NCBI GenBank assembly: GCA_021787845.1
Contig: JAJYLH010000005.1
Span: forward strand, 150,658-214,657
Reading direction: 5' to 3'
DNA length: 64,000 nt
From: Myxococcales bacterium
GTDB lineage: Bacteria > Myxococcota > Myxococcia > Myxococcales > JAJYLH01
Every line of letters begins with the position of its first letter. Position 1 is the first letter of the stretch. The translations under genes and the position numbers were made by a program. Below are positions 26,720 through 60,175 of this stretch, in pieces. The notes below the pieces were generated by a model. The model was not told where the DNA came from and did no database searches. It was given only the letters and a program-made list of their open reading frames with translations.

Positions 26720-26793
26720 GCGGCCGCGCACTCGCGGCGAGGGGAAGCCCTGCCGCCCACCGAATCGGCGACCGCGCTGCTTCGCCCTCGCGT

Positions 26794-26818
26794 CGATCGG
26801 ACCGATCGGTCGAATCGA
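26794..26818. repeat. GATCSGACC-family intergenic repeat, copy A
   Basis: Contains the palindrome ACCGATCGGT (26801-26810) flanked by partial 9-bp units. It lies between the convergent lptE-like and serA genes. This is the shortest of the five copies in the window. Confidence 0.7.
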
Positions 26819-26835
26819 CCCCAGCGGGCCCAGCG

Positions 26836-35845: not shown

Positions 35846-37279
35846 ATGTCCGCAATCATCGGCAATTCCTGCGATCTCCTCGTCATCGGCGCCGGGCCGG
35901 GCGGGTACATCGCCGCGATCCGGGCGGCCCAGAACGGGCTGAAGACGGTGGTGGTCGACAAGGACGAGCGCCCCGGCGGCACCTGCCTCCTCCGCGGCTG
36001 CATCCCCACGAAAGCGCTCCTGGAGGCCGCCTCGCTCTTCGAGTCCGTCCAGGGCGCCGCCGAGTTCGGGGTGATGGCCGAGAGGGTCCGCTTCGACTGG
36101 GCCCAGGTCAACCGGCGCAAGGCCAAGGTGGTGGAAAAGAACTCGAACGGCGTCAGGTTCCTCTTTCGCAAGAACCACATCGAGCAGGTGGCCGGGAGCG
36201 CCCGCCTCGCCGGCGCGGGTGAGGTGGAGGTCACCGCTGCCGATGGACAGAAGCGCCGCCTCTCGGCTAGGCACGTGCTCATCGCGTCCGGCTCCGCGCC
36301 GCGCCTCTTGGGGCTGGCGCCGCCCGACGGCCGGCGGGTCTTCACCTCGGACGAGCTCCTGGAAATCGACGAGGTGCCCCGGAGCCTGGTGGTGGTCGGG
36401 GCTGGGGCGGTGGGCGTCGAGTTCGCCTCCATCTACCAGCGGTTCGGCGCGAAGGTGACCCTCGTGGAGATGCTGCCGCGGCTCGCCCCGCTGGAGGATC
36501 ACGAGGTCTCCGCCGAGCTCGAGCGCTGTTTCCGGCGACGGAAGGTCGAGATCCGCACCTCGACCTCGCTCGCCGACGTCCAGGTGGGCGCCGACGAGGT
36601 GGAGCTGACCCTTCAGGCTGAAGGGAAGCCCTCCGAGAGGGTGAGAGCGCAAGCGCTCCTCGTCGCGGTCGGCCGGCGGCCGGTGAGCGAGAACCTGGGG
36701 CTGGAGGAGATCGCCGGCGTGCAGGTCGAGAGCGGTTACGTCCAGGTGGACGGCCTCTGCCGAACGGGAGCGCCGTGGCTCTCCGCCATCGGCGACGTCG
36801 TCCGCGTCGGCGGCCGGCCGCACCCGCAGCTCGCGCACATCGCCTCGGCGGAAGGGGTGCTGGTCGCCGACCGTCTCGCGGGCAAGCCCGTCGAGCCCAT
36901 CGACTACGACCGCCAGACCATCAACGCGACCTTCTCGGACCCGGAAATCGCGAGCGTCGGCTACACCGAGGCGCGGGCGCGGGAGAGGTTCGGCGCGGTC
37001 CGGGTCGGGAAGTTCCCCTACCAGGCCATCGGCAAGGCGGCGGTGACCGGGCGCCACGAGGGCTTCATCAAGGTCGTCGCGGCCGAGGAGCACGACGAGC
37101 TGCTCGGGGTCCACATCATCGGCGAGAGGGCGACCGAGCTGATCCACGAGGCCGCCGTGGCCCTCCGGCTCGAGTCGACCAGCGAGGAGCTGTGGCGCAC
37201 CATCCATGCCCACCCGACGCTGTCGGAAGGCGTGATGGAGGCCGCGCACGCCGTCGGGGGCAAGGCGCTCGGGGCGTGA
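35846..37279 (+). CDS. lpdA: dihydrolipoyl dehydrogenase
   Basis: 477 residues. FAD-dependent E3 of 2-oxoacid dehydrogenase complexes and/or the glycine cleavage system. FAD motif GAGPGGYIAAIRAAQNG is near residue 17, the redox disulfide in GGTCLLRGCIPTKA near 49-57, the NAD Rossmann motif VVVGAGAVGVEFASIYQRFG near 180, and the C-terminal active-site His-Glu pair in HAHPTLSEGVMEA. Followed by lipA (lipoyl synthase) on the same strand, so lipoamide use and lipoate synthesis are adjacent; a repeat element lies between them. Confidence 0.95.
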   Translation: MSAIIGNSCDLLVIGAGPGGYIAAIRAAQNGLKTVVVDKDERPGGTCLLRGCIPTKALLEAASLFESVQGAAEFGVMAERVRFDWAQVNRRKAKVVEKNSNGVRFLFRKNHIEQVAGSARLAGAGEVEVTAADGQKRRLSARHVLIASGSAPRLLGLAPPDGRRVFTSDELLEIDEVPRSLVVVGAGAVGVEFASIYQRFGAKVTLVEMLPRLAPLEDHEVSAELERCFRRRKVEIRTSTSLADVQVGADEVELTLQAEGKPSERVRAQALLVAVGRRPVSENLGLEEIAGVQVESGYVQVDGLCRTGAPWLSAIGDVVRVGGRPHPQLAHIASAEGVLVADRLAGKPVEPIDYDRQTINATFSDPEIASVGYTEARARERFGAVRVGKFPYQAIGKAAVTGRHEGFIKVVAAEEHDELLGVHIIGERATELIHEAAVALRLESTSEELWRTIHAHPTLSEGVMEAAHAVGGKALGA

Positions 37280-37336
37280 GGTCTCGCTCGGACTCCGGCT
37301 CCCGAGCACCCTTCGTCAGGCACCGGGGCGCCGCGT

Positions 37337-37387
37337 CGATCCGACCGATCGGACCGATCCGACCGATCCGACCGATCGGTCTGATTC
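37337..37387. repeat. GATCSGACC-family intergenic repeat, copy B (longest)
   Basis: Five tandem 9-bp units of the form GATCSGACC run into ACCGATCGGT, between lpdA and lipA (same strand). The units can pair with one another, so the transcript would form stable stems. Confidence 0.8.
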
Positions 37388-37434
37388 TCGCGTGCTGTTT
37401 GCGCCTCGCGCGTTTCGTCTCTACAAGAAGGCGC

Positions 37435-38343
37435 ATGAGCCTCGTCCCTCTGGGCACCGTCCGCCGCGAGCCGAAGCCCGGCTGGCTCCGGGTGCGCCTT
37501 CCGGGCGGCGAGCGCTACGCCTTCGTCAAAGAGACCCTCCGGAGCCTGAAGCTCCACACCGTCTGCGCGGAGGCGCAGTGCCCGAACGTCGGCGAGTGCT
37601 GGGGGAGCGGCACCGCTACCGTCATGCTCATGGGCGACGTCTGCACCCGCGGCTGCCGGTTCTGCGACGTGCACAGCGGCCAGCCGGCGCCTCTCGACCC
37701 CGACGAGCCCCCGCACCTCGCCCAAGCCGTGCGGCAGCTCCGGCTCGACTACATCGTCGTCACCAGCGTCGACCGCGACGACCTCCCGGACGGCGGTGCC
37801 GCCCACTTCGCCGAGTCGATCCGCGCCCTGCGCCGCGAGAGCCCGAAGACCCTGGTCGAGGTGCTGATTCCCGATTTCCAGGGCCTGCGCTCGTCGCTCG
37901 AGGCCATCGTCGGCGCGGCGCCCGAGGTCATCGGCCACAACGTCGAGACCGTCCGCCGGCTGTCGCGCACGGTGCGCGACGTGCGGGCGAGCTACCCGCG
38001 GTCGCTCGAGGTGCTGGCCGAGCTCAAAGCCCTGGGCGCGCGCTTCACCAAGAGCTCGCTCCAACTCGGCCTCGGCGAAACGGACGACGAGGTCCGCGCC
38101 TGCCTCGGCGACTTGCGCGCCAGCGGCGTCGACATCGTCACCCTGGGCCAGTACCTGCGCCCCAGCCCGAAACACCTGCCGGTTCGCGCGTTCGTGCCGC
38201 CGGAAGAATTCGCTCGGTGGAAAGAAGAAGCCGAGGCGCTCGGTTTTCTCTTCGTCGCGAGCGGGCCGCTCGTGCGCTCGAGCTATCGCGCCGGCGAGCT
38301 GTTCCTGAAGGCGCGGCTGGGCCGCGGTCAGCGCGCGCCCTGA
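37435..38343 (+). CDS. lipA: lipoyl synthase
   Basis: 302 residues from the ATG at 37435; the ORF track start lies inside lpdA. Radical SAM enzyme that inserts two sulfurs into octanoyl-lipoyl-domain. Both clusters are visible: the auxiliary cluster cysteines at 44, 49 and 55 (CAEAQCPNVGEC) and the SAM cluster CTRGCRFC at 70-77. The C-terminal RSSYRAGE supplies the conserved serine ligand of the auxiliary cluster. lipB is not in the window. The small membrane protein gene starts 31 bp later. Confidence 0.95.
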   Translation: MSLVPLGTVRREPKPGWLRVRLPGGERYAFVKETLRSLKLHTVCAEAQCPNVGECWGSGTATVMLMGDVCTRGCRFCDVHSGQPAPLDPDEPPHLAQAVRQLRLDYIVVTSVDRDDLPDGGAAHFAESIRALRRESPKTLVEVLIPDFQGLRSSLEAIVGAAPEVIGHNVETVRRLSRTVRDVRASYPRSLEVLAELKALGARFTKSSLQLGLGETDDEVRACLGDLRASGVDIVTLGQYLRPSPKHLPVRAFVPPEEFARWKEEAEALGFLFVASGPLVRSSYRAGELFLKARLGRGQRAP

Positions 38344-38374
38344 GCGCCGGTATCCTCGCCGACGGAGGCGAACC

Positions 38375-38539
38375 GTGCCGAAGCTTCTCGCTCTCATCGT
38401 CGCCTCGATCGTCGCCTACATCCCCGAGATGCTCTTCAAGATGAGCCTCGCGACGGACCTCATCGTTTCGCTCATCGTCGGGTCCATCGCCTACTACGTG
38501 GCGCTCTGGTACTTCAACAAGCTGCGCGGCGGACTCTAG
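38375..38539 (+). CDS. 54-residue membrane protein, function unknown
   Basis: Missing from the ORF track because it is short and starts with GTG. GGAGG lies 6 bp before the GTG. The product starts MPKLLALIVASIVAYIP and has a second hydrophobic run, LIVSLIVGSIAYYVALWYF, before a positively charged end (NKLRGGL), so two membrane helices in a hairpin. Third-position G/C bias matches real genes. It sits between lipA and the RsmB-like gene in the same direction. The family is not recognised. Confidence 0.65.
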   Translation: MPKLLALIVASIVAYIPEMLFKMSLATDLIVSLIVGSIAYYVALWYFNKLRGGL

Positions 38540-38576
38540 GCACGTTCACGCGAGGCTCGTCGCTCCCGGCGACCCG

Positions 38577-39944
38577 ATGCGCATCCGGATGGCGGGAGCC
38601 CATCCGCTCGGCTTTGATGGCTTTCGTCCGATGCACCCCCGCGAGCGCGCCCTGGTCCTCGACGTCGTCTCCCGCGTCTTCGAGCGCGGCGAGCTGGCCG
38701 CCCGCGCCGTCGATCGCGCGGTCCGGGCCAACTCCCACCTCAACAGCCGCACGCGCCACCACCTCACCGACTCGGTCTTCGCCGTCGTCCGGCTGCGCGC
38801 CCGCCTCGACTACCTGCTCGACGCCGCGCTGAAGGACGCCGGTGACCTCCGGTTCGATTCGATCCCCACCCCGGAGCAGAACCGCTTGCGCTTCGCGCTG
38901 GCGCTGGCGACCGAGCTCGGCGTGCCCCTCGCGCAAGCGGTCCAGGACGCGGACGTCGGCCCGCCTCTCGCGCCCGCCGTCGAGCTCGCGGCGACGCGTC
39001 AGCCCGCCTGGCCGGCGGACCCGGTCGCCCGTCTCGCCGCCGAACGCTCGCTTCCCGCATGGCTCGCGCGGCGGCTTCTCGCCGAATACGGGGCGGAAGC
39101 GGACCCGCTCCTCGCGGCGCTGAACGTGCGCGGCCCGGCGTTCGTTCGCGCCAACCTCCTGAAGACCACCCGCGCGGCGCTCGCGCGGGAGCTCGCCGCG
39201 GACGGCGTTCCGGTGACGGCAGGAGCGCTCTCGCCTTGGGCGCTCGAGCTCGAGAAACGTCCGAACGCCTTCGCCCTCCCGTCGTTTCGGGCGGGCCGGT
39301 TCGAGCTGCAGGACGAAGGCTCGCAGCTCGTCGCCGCCGCGACGGGCGCCAGCCCGGGCGAGACCGTCGTCGACGCCTGCGCCGGCGCCGGCGGGAAGAC
39401 CCTCGCCCTCGCCGCGATGATGAGGAACAAGGGCCGGCTCGTCGCCTGCGACATCGCCGGGGAACGGATGAAGGACCTGGGGCCGCGCGCGTCGCGCGCC
39501 GGCGTCTTCAACGTGCAGCCGTTGGTGGTCGACCCGGGTCCGGACGGCGAGCACGTCCTGCGGAAGCACGTCGGCCGAGCGGATGCGGTGCTGGTCGACG
39601 CACCGTGCTCCGGGACCGGCGCCTGGCGGCGAAACCCCGACGCGCGCTGGCGGCTCACCGAAAGCGCTGCCGAGGAGTATCCGGCGCGCCAGCTTTCCAT
39701 CCTCGAGCGCTACGCGCGCCTCGTCGCGCCCGGCGGGCGGCTCGTCTACGCGACCTGCTCGCTCCTGCGGGCGGAGAACGAAGAGGTGGTCGGCCGTTTT
39801 CTCGCCCGCGGCGATTTCGCCCTGGAACGCGCCCCCGTGCCGGAAGCGGCGCTCGACGCGGCGGGCTGCCTGAAGCTCCTGCCGCATCGCCACCGGACCG
39901 ACGGCTTCTTCACCGCGGTGCTCCGGCGGGTCTCTCGGGAATAG
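38577..39944 (+). CDS. RsmB-like rRNA (cytosine-C5) methyltransferase
   Basis: 455 residues. N-terminal ~140 residues resemble the NusB-like RNA-binding domain of RsmB (Sun/Fmu); the rest is a SAM-dependent methyltransferase. SAM motif VVDACAGAGGKTLALA is near residue 265, the first catalytic-loop cysteine in DAPCSGTGAWRRNPD near 343, and the second in YATCSLLRAENEEVV near 393. Expected target is m5C in 16S rRNA. The start may instead be the ATG at 38631 (MHPRERALVLDVV). It ends 66 bp before a convergent gene. Confidence 0.88.
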   Translation: MRIRMAGAHPLGFDGFRPMHPRERALVLDVVSRVFERGELAARAVDRAVRANSHLNSRTRHHLTDSVFAVVRLRARLDYLLDAALKDAGDLRFDSIPTPEQNRLRFALALATELGVPLAQAVQDADVGPPLAPAVELAATRQPAWPADPVARLAAERSLPAWLARRLLAEYGAEADPLLAALNVRGPAFVRANLLKTTRAALARELAADGVPVTAGALSPWALELEKRPNAFALPSFRAGRFELQDEGSQLVAAATGASPGETVVDACAGAGGKTLALAAMMRNKGRLVACDIAGERMKDLGPRASRAGVFNVQPLVVDPGPDGEHVLRKHVGRADAVLVDAPCSGTGAWRRNPDARWRLTESAAEEYPARQLSILERYARLVAPGGRLVYATCSLLRAENEEVVGRFLARGDFALERAPVPEAALDAAGCLKLLPHRHRTDGFFTAVLRRVSRE

Positions 39945-39958
39945 GCCGGCGGGGCGGC

Positions 39959-39992
39959 GAGACCGATCCGTCGGGCCAACCGATCGGTCCGG
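39959..39992. repeat. GATCSGACC-family intergenic repeat, copy C
   Basis: GACCGATCCG and ACCGATCGGT separated by a short degenerate spacer, between the convergent RsmB-like and cobalamin adenosyltransferase genes. The most diverged of the five copies. Confidence 0.6.
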
Positions 39993-40010
39993 CTCTTCGG
40001 CCCGCGCGCC

Positions 40011-40565
40011 CTACTTCCGGTTCGGCTCCCACTTCGTCTCGGGCACCCGCGCCCGATGGTTCGCGAGGCGCGCGAGGGTGAAGAGGTGGTCGCTGAGCCG
40101 ATTCAGGTAGGCGACCGCGACCGGCGGCACCGCCTCGGTCGCCGCGAGGGTGACCAGCGCCCGTTCCGCTCGGCGGCAAACGGTCCTGGCAACGTGGAGC
40201 GCTGCCGCCAGGCGTGTGCCCGCCGGCAGGACGAACGCCCGCAAGGGCTCGAGCTCCTCCTCGGCGCGATCGATCTCCCGCTCGAGCCGCGTCACGTCCT
40301 CGTCGCAGAGCGCCGGAACGTTCTTCGGCGCGTGCTCCGGCACCGGCGTCGCGAGCATCGCGCCCAGCGTGAACAGCTCGCTCTGCAGCCGTTCGAGGAT
40401 GGCGGCGACCGGCGCGTCCGCGCATTCCGCGCGCGCCAGGCCGAGGAACGCGCTCAGCTCGTCGACGTCGCCGTACGCCGCCACCCGCGGATGGTCCTTG
40501 CGCACTCGCGGCGCGCCGAAGAGCCCGGTCGAGCCGTCGTCGCCGACCTTGGTGTAGACCTTCAT
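40011..40565 (-). CDS. PduO-type cob(I)alamin adenosyltransferase
   Basis: 184 residues from the ATG at 40565, which follows GGGAGG; the 553-residue ORF runs upstream through an unrelated gene. Transfers adenosine from ATP to reduced cobalamin to give adenosylcobalamin. The N-terminal ATP loop VYTKVGDDGSTGLFG and RVAAYGDVDELSAFLG are typical, and the C-terminal RRAERALV..YLNRLSDHLFTLAR contains the conserved Arg and Asp contacts. No B12-dependent mutase is in the window. Divergent from the BtrH-like gene. Confidence 0.92.
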   Translation of the reverse strand: MKVYTKVGDDGSTGLFGAPRVRKDHPRVAAYGDVDELSAFLGLARAECADAPVAAILERLQSELFTLGAMLATPVPEHAPKNVPALCDEDVTRLEREIDRAEEELEPLRAFVLPAGTRLAAALHVARTVCRRAERALVTLAATEAVPPVAVAYLNRLSDHLFTLARLANHRARVPETKWEPNRK

Positions 40566-40622
40566 CGCGCCTCCCTTCGGGCGCATGTTAGTCACCGGCC
40601 GAGGTCTTGAGGTTCCAAGCCC

Positions 40623-41594
40623 ATGCGCCACGTCGTCGCCGGCTTCGCCCATCGACCAGGCATGCACTGCGCCTCGACCGCGATGGCCGACGCGCTCCGG
40701 CCCGCTGGGCTCGACTTGACCGAAGAGCTCGCGCTGGGCCTGGGGGCGGGGCTTTCGTTTCACTACTTTCGATCGCCCGGCCTCTCCCCGACGCGCTTCT
40801 TCCTCGGCCGGAGCGTCTCCTTCGAGCACGACCTGTGCGCTCTGGTCGGCGTCCACTTCGACGAACGGTCGGTGAGCGGCTTCGCTGCCGCTTGGCGCCA
40901 GATCCGCGACTGGCTCGACGCCGACCGCCCGGTGCTCGCGCTGACCGACGTGCGGTGGCTGCCCCACTACGCGTCGAACACGCACTTCAACGGCCATCGC
41001 ATCGTGATCGCCGGCTACGACGGCGGCCACGCGCTCCTCGCGGACTCGCATTTCCCGGGGCTCGTCGAGGTCCCGCTCGCGGACTTGGAGCGCGCGATGA
41101 CCTCCGACGTGGCGCCGGTCATGACGAGCGACTGCATCTTCGGCGTGCTCGACCCGCTCGAACGCCCGCCGCTCGTCCCCGGGCTCGCGCGAGAGGCCAT
41201 TCGCGCGAACGCCGCCGAGATGCTGGTGACGTCCGAGACGACGGGGGTTTCCGGCATCGAGGCGCTCGGCGCGAGCCTGCCGGCCTGGGCCGAGGCGCCG
41301 GACGCGGCCTGGTGCGCGCGTTTTGCCTATCAGGTGATCGAGAAGCGCGGCTGCGGCGGCGGGCTCTTCCGCCGGATGTACGCCCGCTTCCTCGACCAGG
41401 CCGGCCTCCCCGCGCTTTCGCGCCTCGCCTCGGACGCGGCGGATTGCTGGTCGAGGCTGGCAGCGGAGCTGAAAGGCGAGAGCGAAGCCGCTCACCCGCG
41501 CTTCGAGAAGGCGTCCGCCCTCACCCGGCAGGTCGCGCTCGCCGAACGCGCGCTCTGGGAACGGGCGAGCGATACGCAGCTCACGGGAGGATGA
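40623..41594 (+). CDS. BtrH-like acyltransferase-fold protein (BtrH N-terminal plus DUF4872-type region)
   Basis: 323 residues. The N-terminal half resembles BtrH, the acyltransferase of butirosin synthesis: GMHCASTAMADAL near residue 13 gives a cysteine nucleophile, and HFNGHRIVIAGYDGGHALLADS near 122-143 supplies a histidine and an acidic residue. The C-terminal half (about 180-310) is a helical DUF4872-like region. There is no carrier protein or antibiotic gene nearby, so it may act in a different acyl or peptide transfer. It overlaps the convergent hypothetical gene by 14 bp. Confidence 0.65.
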   Translation: MRHVVAGFAHRPGMHCASTAMADALRPAGLDLTEELALGLGAGLSFHYFRSPGLSPTRFFLGRSVSFEHDLCALVGVHFDERSVSGFAAAWRQIRDWLDADRPVLALTDVRWLPHYASNTHFNGHRIVIAGYDGGHALLADSHFPGLVEVPLADLERAMTSDVAPVMTSDCIFGVLDPLERPPLVPGLAREAIRANAAEMLVTSETTGVSGIEALGASLPAWAEAPDAAWCARFAYQVIEKRGCGGGLFRRMYARFLDQAGLPALSRLASDAADCWSRLAAELKGESEAAHPRFEKASALTRQVALAERALWERASDTQLTGG

Positions 41595-42804
41595 GACCGC
41601 CCGGCGAGGTCTTCTCCACCGGTCCCGCTCCCTTCGCACCGACGGCCGACAGGATCCTCTCGAAGAGCGCATAACAGAAGGTCACGCTCTCCACCGGTCG
41701 GTCCGAATCGAGGTCCAGCGCGCAGGCGAGCGCGAGCGCCGCGTGTTCGAGCCGCTTCGCGCCGTTCAACAGGTAGCCCAGGTCGAAGAGCCGCTCGGCG
41801 GCCCGCCGGCGGCGCTCCCGGGTCCAGTAGTCCCGCACCGCGTCATCGACCGCGCTCCTGAGCCCCTTCTGGCGCTGCGCCTCGTCCAGGTAGAGCGCCG
41901 AAACCTGGATCTCCTCGATCTTCAGGGCGAGGTGCTGCAGAGGCTCCTCCTCCGGCAGCCAGGTTCGCATCTCCCGGATCGCGATCAGCTCGGCCGCACG
42001 GCGAGCGAGGGCGCTCTCGTCTTCCGGCAGCGAAAGCGTCCGGCCGGGGGAGGGCGTCGGCGGCTCGGGCGGCCCCAGGACGAACGCGACCTCCTGGTAA
42101 CCCGCCGGAACCGCGCGCCGGGCGCGGGCGTTCTGGTCGAGCGCCTGGGTGACGAGCCCGCGCGCGTACGAGCGCGGCACCGCGCCGACGAGCACCCCTT
42201 CGGCCTCCGACAGGCCCTTGAGGAATCGGCGAAACTCCCGCCGGGCGAGCGCGAGCAGCCGCGCCTGGAGGACGCCCTCGGTTTCGCTGATCGCGAGATG
42301 GGCGAGGTCGACGCCCTGCCGCGCGGGCCGGGTCAGGAGCACGATGCGCTCCCCGAAGCCGTCAACGTTGGACAGGAGCGCTCCCGGCTCCCCGGCGGAC
42401 GCGCTGGCCGGGGCGGCGGCTGGCCCTCGGGCCGGCGCCGGCGGGGGCTTGGGCGTCTCGACCGCCAGGCCCTTCGCCCGCAGCCGGTGGACGGCGCGCT
42501 TGCCCTCCTTCGCCACCGCCTTGTCGGCAGAAGCGCTCAAGGTGAGCGCCAGCGCTACCGCCTCGCGGGCGACCACCTGGTCCAGCACCAACGCCCGCAG
42601 AGGCGCCGGGAGCGCCGCCACCCGGTCGGCGTCGGCCTCGCGTAGGCCTTCGAGCGCTACCCGTGCCGCGGCGAGCTTCTCGACCGAAAAGGGCGGGGCC
42701 CCGGCGTCCTCCATCTCGGCGGCGATGGCCGTGACGGACACGCTCGCATCGCAGAGGAGCGCCAGGAGCTCGTCGTCGGGAAAGCCGGGCGGGGTCTTGG
42801 CCAT
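41581..42804 (-). CDS. conserved hypothetical protein
   Basis: 407 residues, no signal peptide or membrane segment. N-terminal ~130 residues are helical and Ala-rich and end in a Pro/Ala linker (PPPAPARGPAAAPASASAG). The C-terminal ~270 residues form a likely globular domain containing LLTRPARQGVDLAHLAISE and a helical end (LFDLGYLLNGAKRLEHAALALACALD) reminiscent of a TPR-like pair. No catalytic motif is obvious. It is divergent from mdh. Confidence 0.7.
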   Translation of the reverse strand: MAKTPPGFPDDELLALLCDASVSVTAIAAEMEDAGAPPFSVEKLAAARVALEGLREADADRVAALPAPLRALVLDQVVAREAVALALTLSASADKAVAKEGKRAVHRLRAKGLAVETPKPPPAPARGPAAAPASASAGEPGALLSNVDGFGERIVLLTRPARQGVDLAHLAISETEGVLQARLLALARREFRRFLKGLSEAEGVLVGAVPRSYARGLVTQALDQNARARRAVPAGYQEVAFVLGPPEPPTPSPGRTLSLPEDESALARRAAELIAIREMRTWLPEEEPLQHLALKIEEIQVSALYLDEAQRQKGLRSAVDDAVRDYWTRERRRRAAERLFDLGYLLNGAKRLEHAALALACALDLDSDRPVESVTFCYALFERILSAVGAKGAGPVEKTSPGGLILP

Positions 42805-52391: not shown

Positions 52392-52438
52392 GCGGCATCT
52401 ATCGTCTCGCGCCCGCGCGCGATTCCCACACATCGCGT

Positions 52439-52480
52439 GATCCGACCGATCCGTCCGATCCGACCGATCGGTCCGATCGG
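52439..52480. repeat. GATCSGACC-family intergenic repeat, copy D
   Basis: Four to five degenerate 9-bp units end in ACCGATCGGTCC and a further CCGATCGG, between the convergent udk and asnS genes. The core ACCGATCGGTCC is also present in copy C. Confidence 0.75.
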
Positions 52481-52566
52481 CGCGCGGGTTCCGCGATCAC
52501 GCCGGCGCCGGTGACTCGCGGATGGCCTGAACCGGAAAGCCGGCCCGCGGCGAAGTCCTGCCCGCG

Positions 52567-53874: not shown

Positions 53875-54012
53875 GGCGTTCCCTCGAAAAAAAGGCGAGG
53901 GAACATAGCGGAAGCATCGCGAGCGCTCAAGCGGCCCGGGCCCGCGGCCGTCTGGCTCGCCCCGGCGTCACTGCGGGGGCTTGGCCGGCACGCGGTCCTC
54001 GAAAAGCTCGAC

Positions 54013-54021
54013 TTATCCACA
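54013..54021 (+). promoter_or_regulatory. perfect DnaA box, first copy
   Basis: TTATCCACA, identical to the strongest E. coli DnaA box, in the first A unit. The chance expectation for this 9-mer in 64 kb of such GC-rich DNA is well below one. Confidence 0.5.
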
Positions 54022-54094
54022 GGCCGCGGTACAAGGTCGTCGAAAGACGTAACTTTTACCGATTGTGCGGCGCAGGCTCCCCGAAAAGCTCGAC

Positions 54095-54103
54095 TTATCC
54101 ACA
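54095..54103 (+). promoter_or_regulatory. perfect DnaA box, second copy
   Basis: TTATCCACA in the second A unit, 82 bp from the first and in the same orientation. Whether DnaA binds is untested; the second copy arises from duplication of the dimer. Confidence 0.5.
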
Positions 54104-54381
54104 GGCTGCGCTGCAAGGACCTCGAAAGACGTAACTTTTACCGACCGTGCGCGACGGGTTCCCCGAAAACGACACTTTCCGACGACCTCGCGCCACCGGC
54201 TCCTCGAAAACGACACTTTTCGGCGACCTCGCGCCACCGGCTCCTCGAAAACGATGCTTTTCGACGACCTCGCGCGACGAGGTCCCCGAAAACGACACTT
54301 TTCGACGACCCCGCGCCACCAGCTCCCCGAAAACGACACTTTTCGACGACCCTGCGCGACGAGGTTCCCGAAAACGACACT

Positions 54382-54389
54382 TTCCGGCG
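54382..54389 (+). repeat. left 8-bp target duplication (TTCCGGCG)
   Basis: Identical to 54831-54838. The two copies flank the foldback element and correspond to one position inside the 41-bp C unit. Confidence 0.75.
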
Positions 54390-54830
54390 GCGGGCATCGC
54401 CGTCGTCGGGTGGATGAGCCGGGCGGGACGCCCCCTCCCCAACCCGTCCCCCGCAAAGTACGCGGGAGAGGGGCTAACTGTGCCTTCGCATAGGCGATCT
54501 TTTCGGCTCCGCGCTGTCCCGCGTGGGTAGTGCGCAACGAGATGGCGTTCATGATCGTGCTCCATCTCGGCCGGAATTGGAGCCGGACACGTGAGTGTCC
54601 GGGTACAGGCACCGCGCACATGCGTTGGCCAAGCCAGCGCCAGGCCGCTGCCAGCGGGCGGATGCCCAGCATGAACCCGGACACTCACGTGTCCGGCTCC
54701 CGCTCCAATTCCGATTCCCACTCGAAACAGCGCGGAGCCAGCTTTTCCTCCCTCTCCCGCGCTCTTGCGGGGAAGGGGTTGGGGAGGGGGGGCGCCGCGG
54801 GCGACAACCCGAGGCGTCTGGATGCCCCCA
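54390..54830. mobile_element. MITE-like 441-bp foldback element
   Basis: No transposase or other gene. Ends are related inverted repeats (GCGGGCATC and, reversed, TGGGGGCATC). Nested arms include 54433-54472 with 54750-54788 (CCCTCCCCAACCC type), 54504-54517 with 54727-54739 (GGCTCCGCGCTGT) and 54573-54604 with 54675-54712 (AGCCGGACACGTGAGTGTCC). It is flanked by an 8-bp direct repeat, and removal restores a perfect 41-bp unit (25 + 16 bp). Its mover must be encoded elsewhere. The CCCTCTCCCGC/GCGGGAGAGGG arms resemble widespread intergenic palindromes of Proteobacteria. Confidence 0.8.
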
Positions 54831-58255: not shown

Positions 58256-58330
58256 ACGCCGGCGCCACCGACACATCACCGCGGCTTCCCCGACGCCCGA
58301 TCGCACGCGCATGCCCCCGTGCGGTGATCT

Positions 58331-58376
58331 GTCCGATCAGACCGATCGGTCGGATCCGACGGATCGGTCCGATCGG
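58331..58376. repeat. GATCSGACC-family intergenic repeat, copy E
   Basis: Contains two near-copies of ACCGATCGGTC arranged around a central GGATCC, making an almost perfect 30-bp palindrome. It lies between folC and the AMIN-protein gene (same strand), 75 bp after folC. Confidence 0.75.
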
Positions 58377-58474
58377 ATAGCCCTGCCGAGAAGTGCCGAG
58401 GCGATCAAACTTGCGCCTCAGTCGCCGCAAAGTTGCGCGCCAGATCGCGTGTGGTACCGTCGATCGGCGCTTTC

Positions 58475-60175
58475 ATGCGTCTTTTTGCGGGAGCGGCTCA
58501 GCGGATGGGAAGAGGGTGGCTCGCTCTGAGCGTGGCGCTTGCGCTGCCGCTCTCCGCTTCCGCCGCCAACTTGCGCCGCCTGGAAAAGGTCGAGCTGAGC
58601 GGCACCGGAATCGCCACCGCGCTCGCCATCACCACCGACGGCCCCGCGAACTGGACGAGCTTCAAGCTTTCCGAGCCGACGCGAATCGTTCTCGACTTTC
58701 CGGAGACGGTCGCCACCGCGCAGAGCTACGAAGTCGCGTCCGACGACCCCGTGACGCGCTGGAGCATCGAGGTCCTGGGCGATCCGCGCTCGCCGACGGC
58801 GCGCCTGACCGTGCAGCTCGCCCGCGACGCGGACTACCTCGTCACGTCGCACGGCTCGACCATCACGCTGAAGCTGCGACCGGCGACCGCGCGGCCACTC
58901 GTCGCGCTGGCGACCGAGAGAGCACGAGCGCAGCCGGCAAGCGCGCCAGCCCCCTCCGCCACCACCGGATGGTCGACAAAGAAGCGCGCGGCGATCGAGG
59001 CGCGGCTCGACGCCAAGGCCAAGACCGAGGCGGCGGATGTGGCCGCCGCGAAGCGCCTCGAGGCGAAACGAAAAGCGGACCAAGCTGCGCGACGCGCGGC
59101 GCAAGAGAAGGCCCGAGAGGCGGCCCAGCTCGCGGCGAAGAAAAAGGCGGAAGCGGCCGCGCATGCGGAGGCGAAACGAAGAGCGGATGAAGCCGCGAGG
59201 CGCTCGGCGCAGGAGAAGGCACGAAAGGCGGCTCAGCTCGCGGCGAAGAAAACGGCGGAAGCGGCCGCGCGCGCGGAGGCGAAGCGAAGAGCGGATGAAG
59301 CCGCGAGGCGCGCGGCGCAGGAGAAGGCTCGCCAGGAGGCGAAGCTCGCGGCGAACGAGAAAGCGGAGGCCGCGGCGCGCGCGGAGGCGAAACGAAGAGC
59401 GGACGAGGCCGCAAAGCGCGCGGCGCGTCAGAAGGCTCGTCAGGAAGCGAAGCTGGCGGCGAAGAAGAAGGCGGAAGCCGAGGCACGCGCGGAGGCGAAA
59501 CGAAGAGCGGACGAAGCCGCGAAGCGCGCGGCGCGTGAGAAAGCGCGAAAGGCGGCCCGGCTCGCGGCGAAAGAGCAAGCGGAAGCCGAGGCGCGCGCGG
59601 AGGCGAAACGAAGAGCGGACGAAGCCGCAAAGCACGCGGCGCGTGAGAAGGCACGAAAGGCGGCCCAGCTCGCGGCGAAAGAACAAGCGGAAGCCGAGGC
59701 GCGCGCGGAGGCGAAGCGAAAAGCGGACGAGGCCGCGAAGCGCCGGGCGGCACGAGCGGCGCGCAAGGCAGAAGCGGTCTCGGGGAGGCGCGCCGCCAAG
59801 CCGCGTCGCACGCTCGCGAGGTTGCGCCCGCTGGGATTCCGGCGCATGGCGACTGGCGACGCCGAGATCCTCATCCGCACGAGCGCGCCGGTGCCGTTCG
59901 CGCTCGACACCCAGGCGCGCGACCAATGCTCCGTCGAGCTGGAAGACACCGTCATCGACGTCGCGAACAATCGGCTGCCGCTCGACACGCGCTACTTCGA
60001 CACCGCGGTCGCGCGGGTGGCGCCGCACGCGAATCGCGCCCATCGGCGCGTGAGCATCGAAATCGATCTCTCCCATCCCGCCATCTGCGCCGTGCGCGCC
60101 GCGGGAAGCTCGTTGCGCGTCGAGGTCCTCGGAAGCGGTGCGGCCTTGCGAGCAGCGATTCCCGGCGGGAGATGA
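58475..60175 (+). CDS. AMIN-domain periplasmic protein with 36-residue helical repeats
   Basis: 566 residues from the ATG at 58475 (an ATG at 58505 is also possible). Signal peptide ends ALALPLSASAAN. An AMIN domain follows to about residue 140 (LSEPTRIVLDFPET). Residues ~196-411 are six 36-residue repeats (EAKRRADEAAKRAAREKARK type) plus a partial seventh, expected to form a long charged helix like TolA. A second AMIN-like domain ends the protein. AMIN domains bind peptidoglycan or envelope partners, so it may span the periplasm. lptD starts at its stop codon (ATGA). Confidence 0.8.
   Translation: MRLFAGAAQRMGRGWLALSVALALPLSASAANLRRLEKVELSGTGIATALAITTDGPANWTSFKLSEPTRIVLDFPETVATAQSYEVASDDPVTRWSIEVLGDPRSPTARLTVQLARDADYLVTSHGSTITLKLRPATARPLVALATERARAQPASAPAPSATTGWSTKKRAAIEARLDAKAKTEAADVAAAKRLEAKRKADQAARRAAQEKAREAAQLAAKKKAEAAAHAEAKRRADEAARRSAQEKARKAAQLAAKKTAEAAARAEAKRRADEAARRAAQEKARQEAKLAANEKAEAAARAEAKRRADEAAKRAARQKARQEAKLAAKKKAEAEARAEAKRRADEAAKRAAREKARKAARLAAKEQAEAEARAEAKRRADEAAKHAAREKARKAAQLAAKEQAEAEARAEAKRKADEAAKRRAARAARKAEAVSGRRAAKPRRTLARLRPLGFRRMATGDAEILIRTSAPVPFALDTQARDQCSVELEDTVIDVANNRLPLDTRYFDTAVARVAPHANRAHRRVSIEIDLSHPAICAVRAAGSSLRVEVLGSGAALRAAIPGGR
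59060..59707 (+). repeat. six tandem 108-bp coding repeats
   Basis: Each unit encodes 36 residues starting EAKR; units start at 59060, 59168, 59276, 59384, 59492 and 59600, with a partial seventh at 59708. Copies differ mainly by Arg/Lys/His and Gln/Glu changes. All lie in frame inside the AMIN-protein gene. Confidence 0.9.

Follow-up and report, generated by a model that had tools for sequence, protein, structure and literature searches.

A modular GATC palindrome after stop codons in a Myxococcales genome, with a probable role at transcript ends

A short palindromic element built from 9-bp units of the form GATCNGWCN, with a modal length of 40 bp (four units), lies just past hundreds of stop codons in this Myxococcales genome and fills most of its short convergent gaps. 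Because of this placement we consider that the palindrome probably helps to end or protect messages from both directions. We assign a probability of roughly 0.6 to the reading that it is a modular, strand-symmetric palindrome at the 3' ends of transcription units, working from both sides; this reading is drawn from sequence and gene position. Transcript ending in GC-rich bacteria with few U-tract terminators is poorly understood, and one repeated sequence filling most short convergent gaps makes a ready-made set of some 400 near-identical test sites.

Copies in the window and architecture of the element

The window, the 64-kb stretch of DNA that was analysed, contains ACCGATCGGT exactly five times (starts at 26801, 37371, 39979, 52463 and 58341), against a chance expectation of 0.10 (sd 0.30); none of 100 shuffles reached five. 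A preliminary description of the window had reported GATC-repeat copies at five sites and the shared word nowhere else, and the exact count, with the flanking units read directly, bears out both statements. Its assignment of three copies to convergent gaps and two to gaps between genes of the same direction was reproduced when window genes were called by codon usage, and several flanking genes were backed by Pfam matches. The convergent gap at 26720-26835 (flanks 26719 and 26836) holds a two-unit element, GATCGGACC GATCGGTCG AATC, at 26795-26816 (RNA MFE -15.4 kcal/mol, z -1.1). A degenerate element, GACCGATCCGTCGGGCCAACCGATCGGTCC, occupies 39961-39990 in the convergent gap 39945-40010 (flanks 39944 and 40011; MFE -20.0 kcal/mol, z -1.7). 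The canonical four-unit, 40-bp form is found at 52439-52478 in the convergent gap 52392-52566 (flanks 52391 and 52567; MFE -30.2 kcal/mol, z -2.2), where a uridine-kinase-like gene and a class II aminoacyl-tRNA synthetase gene converge. Both tandem gaps carry five-unit elements. That at 37338-37386, four forward units followed by one reverse unit, lies in the gap 37280-37434 (flanking genes at 37279 and 37435), 58 nt past the stop of a pyridine-nucleotide-disulphide oxidoreductase gene (MFE -33.3 kcal/mol, z -3.75); that at 58326-58374 lies in the gap 58256-58504 (flanks 58255 and 58505), 70 nt past the stop of a Mur-ligase-like gene (MFE -39.9 kcal/mol, z -4.9). As had been proposed, the units account for the IGP- and RSD-type strings in shadow ORFs, a period of 9 bp being three codons long. 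The window also contains two unrelated tandem repeats: a 108-bp repeat at 59060-59743 within the gene 58505-60175, encoding a long protein region rich in Lys, Ala, Glu and Arg, and a 41/82-bp array (CCCCGAAAACGACACTTTTCGA..) at 53996-54383 in a divergent gap, with a DnaA-box-like word, TTATCCACA, near its start.

The host genome comprises 6.24 Mb in 153 contigs and is 98% complete. For comparison we used genomes of the same order, class and phylum, none of them from the same family. ACCGATCGGT has 373 copies in the 6.24 Mb; the other same-order genomes searched have 0 to 12. The 13-mer GATCNGWCNGATC has 1251 copies here, and other genomes of the class have 0 to 14. A 22-mer spanning two tandem units is present 848 times; two further genomes of the phylum have 55 and 21 copies and the rest of the 195 have none, so that tandem copies are present in just three of 195 genomes. 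The nonamer has thus undergone an all-or-none expansion in this genome, far beyond chance. Element counts are minima, since a strict definition by exact match to GATCNGWCNGATC misses the degenerate window copy at 39961.

The architecture and gene context of the element were examined in 1.90 Mb of the genome, containing 122 arrays. Unit number ranges from 2 to 6, and 68 of the 122 arrays have exactly four. The end units face inward (forward GAC on the left, reverse GTC on the right) in 83 arrays and outward in none. A core of usually two further units lies between the 13-bp box GATCRGACCGATC and a second box that is its reverse complement. The end units read GATC[G/A]GACC; most inner units, which may have either orientation, are GATC with CGACC or GGACC. 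Among four-unit arrays the only common patterns are ATAT and AAAT (reverse complement ATTT); the centred AATT pattern is nearly absent (2 of 57), and ACCGATCGGT is mostly off-centre. GATC and the flanking G and C are strongly conserved. No terminal GTAG/CGTC tag was found; the flanks have no more than a weak preference for C on the left and G on the right of the element. Most elements of at least three units form a strong hairpin on either strand.

Placement relative to genes and a candidate transcript-end hairpin

Gap types were assigned with our own uncurated gene caller, which seems reliable (it makes 84-90% of the first contigs sampled coding). Arrays occupy 45 of 180 convergent gaps (25%), 55 of 622 tandem gaps (9%) and 10 of 222 divergent gaps (4.5%), convergent and divergent occupancy differing at p ~3e-9 (Fisher), and only 10 of the 122 arrays are genic. 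Copies are therefore neither random with respect to gene orientation nor abundant within genes, and a transcript-end role, one of those suggested in the preliminary description, is well supported by position; termination and 3' protection fit the sequence equally. The absence of copies from divergent gaps, also reported there, is true of the five window copies but does not extend to the genome, where 11 of 122 copies (~9%) are divergent, a fraction that we count against the transcript-end reading.

Within gaps the placement is tight. Convergent gaps of 100-200 nt are occupied in 28 of 46 cases (61%), by one array each and typically about 50 nt from both stops, while none of 58 divergent gaps of this size and none of 93 operon-like tandem gaps of 60-100 nt has an array. 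Density in tandem gaps peaks at 1.2-1.75 per kb 40-100 nt past the stop and is near zero beyond 200 nt; 49 of the 55 tandem copies lie at most 150 nt from the stop (p 5e-9), and tandem-gap space more than 150 nt from both genes yields one match in 32.8 kb. Convergent gaps beyond 150 nt have no copies in 9.6 kb, and far tandem space has four in 38.6 kb. Three control repeats of the same genome (a GTAG-tagged REP, a CACGTG family and a GTCAACCGGA family) are not restricted to the stop-proximal zone, and so the position of the element does not merely reflect tolerance of insertions. No element was found within 150 nt after any of 30 tRNA genes, which weighs, within so small a sample, against the transcript-end reading. 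One ARAGORN call of tRNA-Pyl, inside a called gene at G000:C14:8183-8276, is probably a false positive.

We infer that the element is active in its hairpin form and that this either terminates or protects. Transcription from either side would produce, roughly 50 nt past the stop codon, a hairpin of about -30 kcal/mol, and this would set the stable 3' end of the mRNA. The hairpin might act as a U-tract-free terminator that stalls and releases RNA polymerase, or it might block 3' exonucleases after Rho has halted transcription further on. A single copy would serve both genes of a convergent pair, and the one shared copy in each occupied convergent gap argues for such two-way use.

Gene ends that lack the element also have hairpins. 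Unrelated inverted repeats with an arm score of at least 9 are present at 15% of element-free 3' ends, compared with 3% of regions before starts (p 4.5e-6), and in 25% of element-free convergent gaps compared with 5% of divergent gaps; the examples listed include GTAG REPs and unique hairpins. That unrelated hairpins are commoner at these ends suggests that a gene end needs a hairpin and not the sequence of the GATC element as such.

Other properties of the element, together with the lack of a U-tract, speak against a simple RNA reading. The earlier proposal that the 9-bp units pair in RNA stands to the extent that the element folds as a hairpin; it is accompanied neither by base-pair covariation (at the variable pairs of the 40-bp elements there is none, two pairs falling below shuffled columns) nor by strand asymmetry, there being no sense-strand preference in tandem gaps (MFE difference 0.49 +/- 0.60 kcal/mol; 18 G.U against 22 A.C). 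With both signs absent, selection on RNA folding can be no more than presumed. Because nearly all variants fold strongly either way, neither sign would be expected from a coarse requirement for a hairpin. The element sequence is, however, conserved far more than a hairpin alone would require, which counts against the transcript-end reading.

Relation to known repeats and alternative explanations

The closest functional parallel is, by analogy, taken to be a large class of mapped 3' ends in Streptomyces clavuligerus, from another GC-rich group, the HS-U-lack TEPs, which have strong hairpins without a U-tract and are read as I-shaped terminators or as protected Rho-dependent ends (PMC8269248). 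Bidirectional terminators have likewise been described (Ju et al. 2019, as cited in PMC8269248). The GATC element resembles these U-lacking ends in being a strong hairpin near gene ends, with no U-tract and with overlapping use of the two strands; it differs in that they are mapped RNA ends sharing no single repeated sequence, while the element is known from its position and sequence. We infer that it acts like a U-lacking, two-way transcript-end hairpin.

As a repeat, the element has the features of untagged REP-like palindromes (repeated, intergenic, no terminal tag), and we class it with them. Such palindromes exist in, for example, M. tuberculosis, D. radiodurans, Bordetella and Brucella (PMC3733652). 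Like them it is an intergenic palindrome without a terminal motif, and of its hundreds of copies most lie downstream of genes; unlike them it consists of 9-bp GATC units with inward-facing ends, and its nonamer recurs in several other phyla. With the RAYT-type GTAG/CGTC REPs (PMC3733652) it shares copy number, a palindromic structure and a preference for convergent and tandem gaps, and it is, as they are, a high-copy, mostly intergenic palindrome of 20-40 bp. In contrast to them it lacks the tag, is strand-symmetric and does not lie beside the Y1 transposase gene of the genome: no GATC array was found within the 3.2 kb fetched around that gene. It is also tied to stops much more tightly than the GTAG REP of its own genome.

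Several further repeats and genes were noted. There is one clear Y1_Tnp (RAYT-type) gene, of ~154 aa (G000:C24:50422-50640), and one further weak match. A second repeat family of GTAG-tagged REP type, GTAGGATGGGTGGAGCGNAGCG..CCCATC, has 61 motif matches in 1.9 Mb, in convergent and tandem gaps and only twice in divergent ones; examples are at G000:C80:5542, G000:C8:35383 and G000:C128:109547. Two inverted copies of a third repeat, GCCGGACACGTGAGTGTCCGGGT, lie in the window at ~54585-54693 (G000:C128:205242-205350), and copies across the genome are mostly found where intergenic gaps are larger. Convergent gaps without the GATC element repeatedly hold a hairpin close to CCGCTCGCCCTTCGACTGCGCTCAGGGTGAGCGG (G000:C128:134659 and G000:C35:8767).

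The element could instead be a selfish or neutral REP-like repeat that expanded in this lineage and persists after genes, where it is least harmful, any effects on transcripts being secondary. We regard this as unlikely, though it is the likeliest of the alternatives. Its all-or-none presence would be expected of such a passenger, known REPs lie mostly downstream of coding regions, between unidirectional and convergent genes (PMC3733652), the genome also has a Y1 transposase gene and a further REP family, and asymmetric variants occur in tandem gaps about equally in both orientations (AAAT 6, ATTT 7). A tolerated passenger would, on the other hand, hardly reach the occupancy seen in convergent gaps of 100-200 nt; far intergenic space that is open to other repeats is almost empty of the element, which moreover has no target-site duplication, tag or flanking transposase.

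The missing covariation and asymmetry fit a symmetric DNA-level site too. The element might be a duplex site for a symmetric protein or enzyme, be it a nucleoid protein (also named in the preliminary description), a roadblock protein or, as at BIMEs, gyrase; once bound, this would part converging transcription and relieve supercoiling between convergent genes. Strand symmetry and the lack of sense/antisense bias agree with this idea, as do the conserved GATC with its flanking G and C, the mostly off-centre position of ACCGATCGGT and the scarcity of the AATT pattern. We nevertheless consider it doubtful: element-free convergent gaps hold unrelated hairpins, not degenerate copies of the unit, unit number varies, and many isolated CCGATCGG and CGATCG sites lie within genes.

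A family of canonical Rho-independent terminators, to which placement after stops, the GC-rich hairpin and bidirectional use in convergent gaps might point, is very improbable and, for want of a U-tract, already largely refuted. No U-tract follows the 43 tandem copies analysed (the T fraction is 0.10-0.13, and the first 15 nt contain no TTTT), nor is one present on the other side, and a scan of 36000-42000 for terminator-like sequences gave no site at the element; the lack of sense/antisense asymmetry and of pair covariation likewise speaks against a canonical intrinsic terminator. Among other 3' hairpins of this genome, 11 of 82 have a T-rich tail. Tandem 9-bp units, and the arrays of up to 27 nonamers in some planctomycetes, would suit a functionless, drifting minisatellite. 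This is hardly credible at all, since the arrays here mostly have four units, are polarised at their ends 83 to 0 and are tightly placed after stops; a freely varying copy number (VNTR) is thereby refuted for this genome.

Other candidates were rejected. For a MITE, the 13-bp inverted boxes are present, but direct matches between the flanks equal those of shuffled flanks and there is no target-site duplication. A Dam-type methylase as the driver is contradicted by the many array-free relatives that, like this genome, have a D12 methylase gene; the gene here, a Dam-like adenine methylase (G000:C21:18977-19717), has a GATC element at its own 3' end. The DNA uptake sequences of Neisseria and Pasteurellaceae form hairpins at gene ends as inverted word pairs and are also abundant as single copies within genes. 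The GATC elements differ in being rarely genic, and CCGATCGG, with 19 occurrences in 404 kb of genes, is about as frequent as we estimate from base composition. Four 13-mers were looked for in the collection of papers searched, none of which contained any of them, and the window gave no Rfam match at the gathering threshold.

The nonamer in other phyla

An exact scan for three tandem units, in which phyla were taken from genome titles and this nonamer alone was scanned, matched genomes of Planctomycetota, Lentisphaeria, Verrucomicrobia, Hydrogenedentota and Acidobacteria, Geobacter-like and other Deltaproteobacteria, Chloroflexi, Chthonomonas, Streptomyces and another member of the Myxococcota. 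In twenty of the matching genomes the 22-mer is present in 4 to 965 copies and its reversed control, lenient because it contains the rare word CTAG, is absent. Nearly the same 40-bp elements as those described here are found in a Desulfuromonadales genome and in Pelotalea chapellei, in the latter followed by a T-run. Elsewhere the forms differ, being long one-way arrays or, in Oligosphaera, big looped hairpins. At the loci examined in other phyla, which were picked for holding arrays, density again falls from convergent through tandem to divergent gaps, less steeply than in this genome, and 28 of 110 arrays are inside called genes. In Geobacter bemidjiensis, direct repeats of 6-42 nt have been reported in many copies between genes (PMC2996986); compared by description, these are likewise short and spread intergenically, and related nonamer arrays occur in Geobacter-like genomes.

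This scattered, all-or-none presence raises the testable question of what drives the repeated multiplication of a GATC unit. A tentative answer, which we put forward as a possibility well short of an even chance, is that GATC-SGWCS is a self-complementary block that unrelated bacteria have repeatedly amplified into modular, two-way palindromes at gene ends, a common driver (an enzyme or a behaviour of polymerase) creating them independently in many phyla. On this proposal any number of units would still fold, and the nonamer would for that reason serve as a modular two-way transcript-end element.

In the first 400 kb of Oligosphaera ethanolica there are 11 elements, several of them long looped hairpins. 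Four of the 11 are in divergent gaps, and the family is thus less strictly 3' than that of our genome. Rfam matches of miRNA hairpin models to an O. ethanolica array were far below the gathering threshold and are taken as chance. At base 102776 of the same 400 kb, twelve nonamer arrays stand in a row in a convergent gap, as repeated hairpins with CGCGAAGAAGACAAAAGAC spacers.
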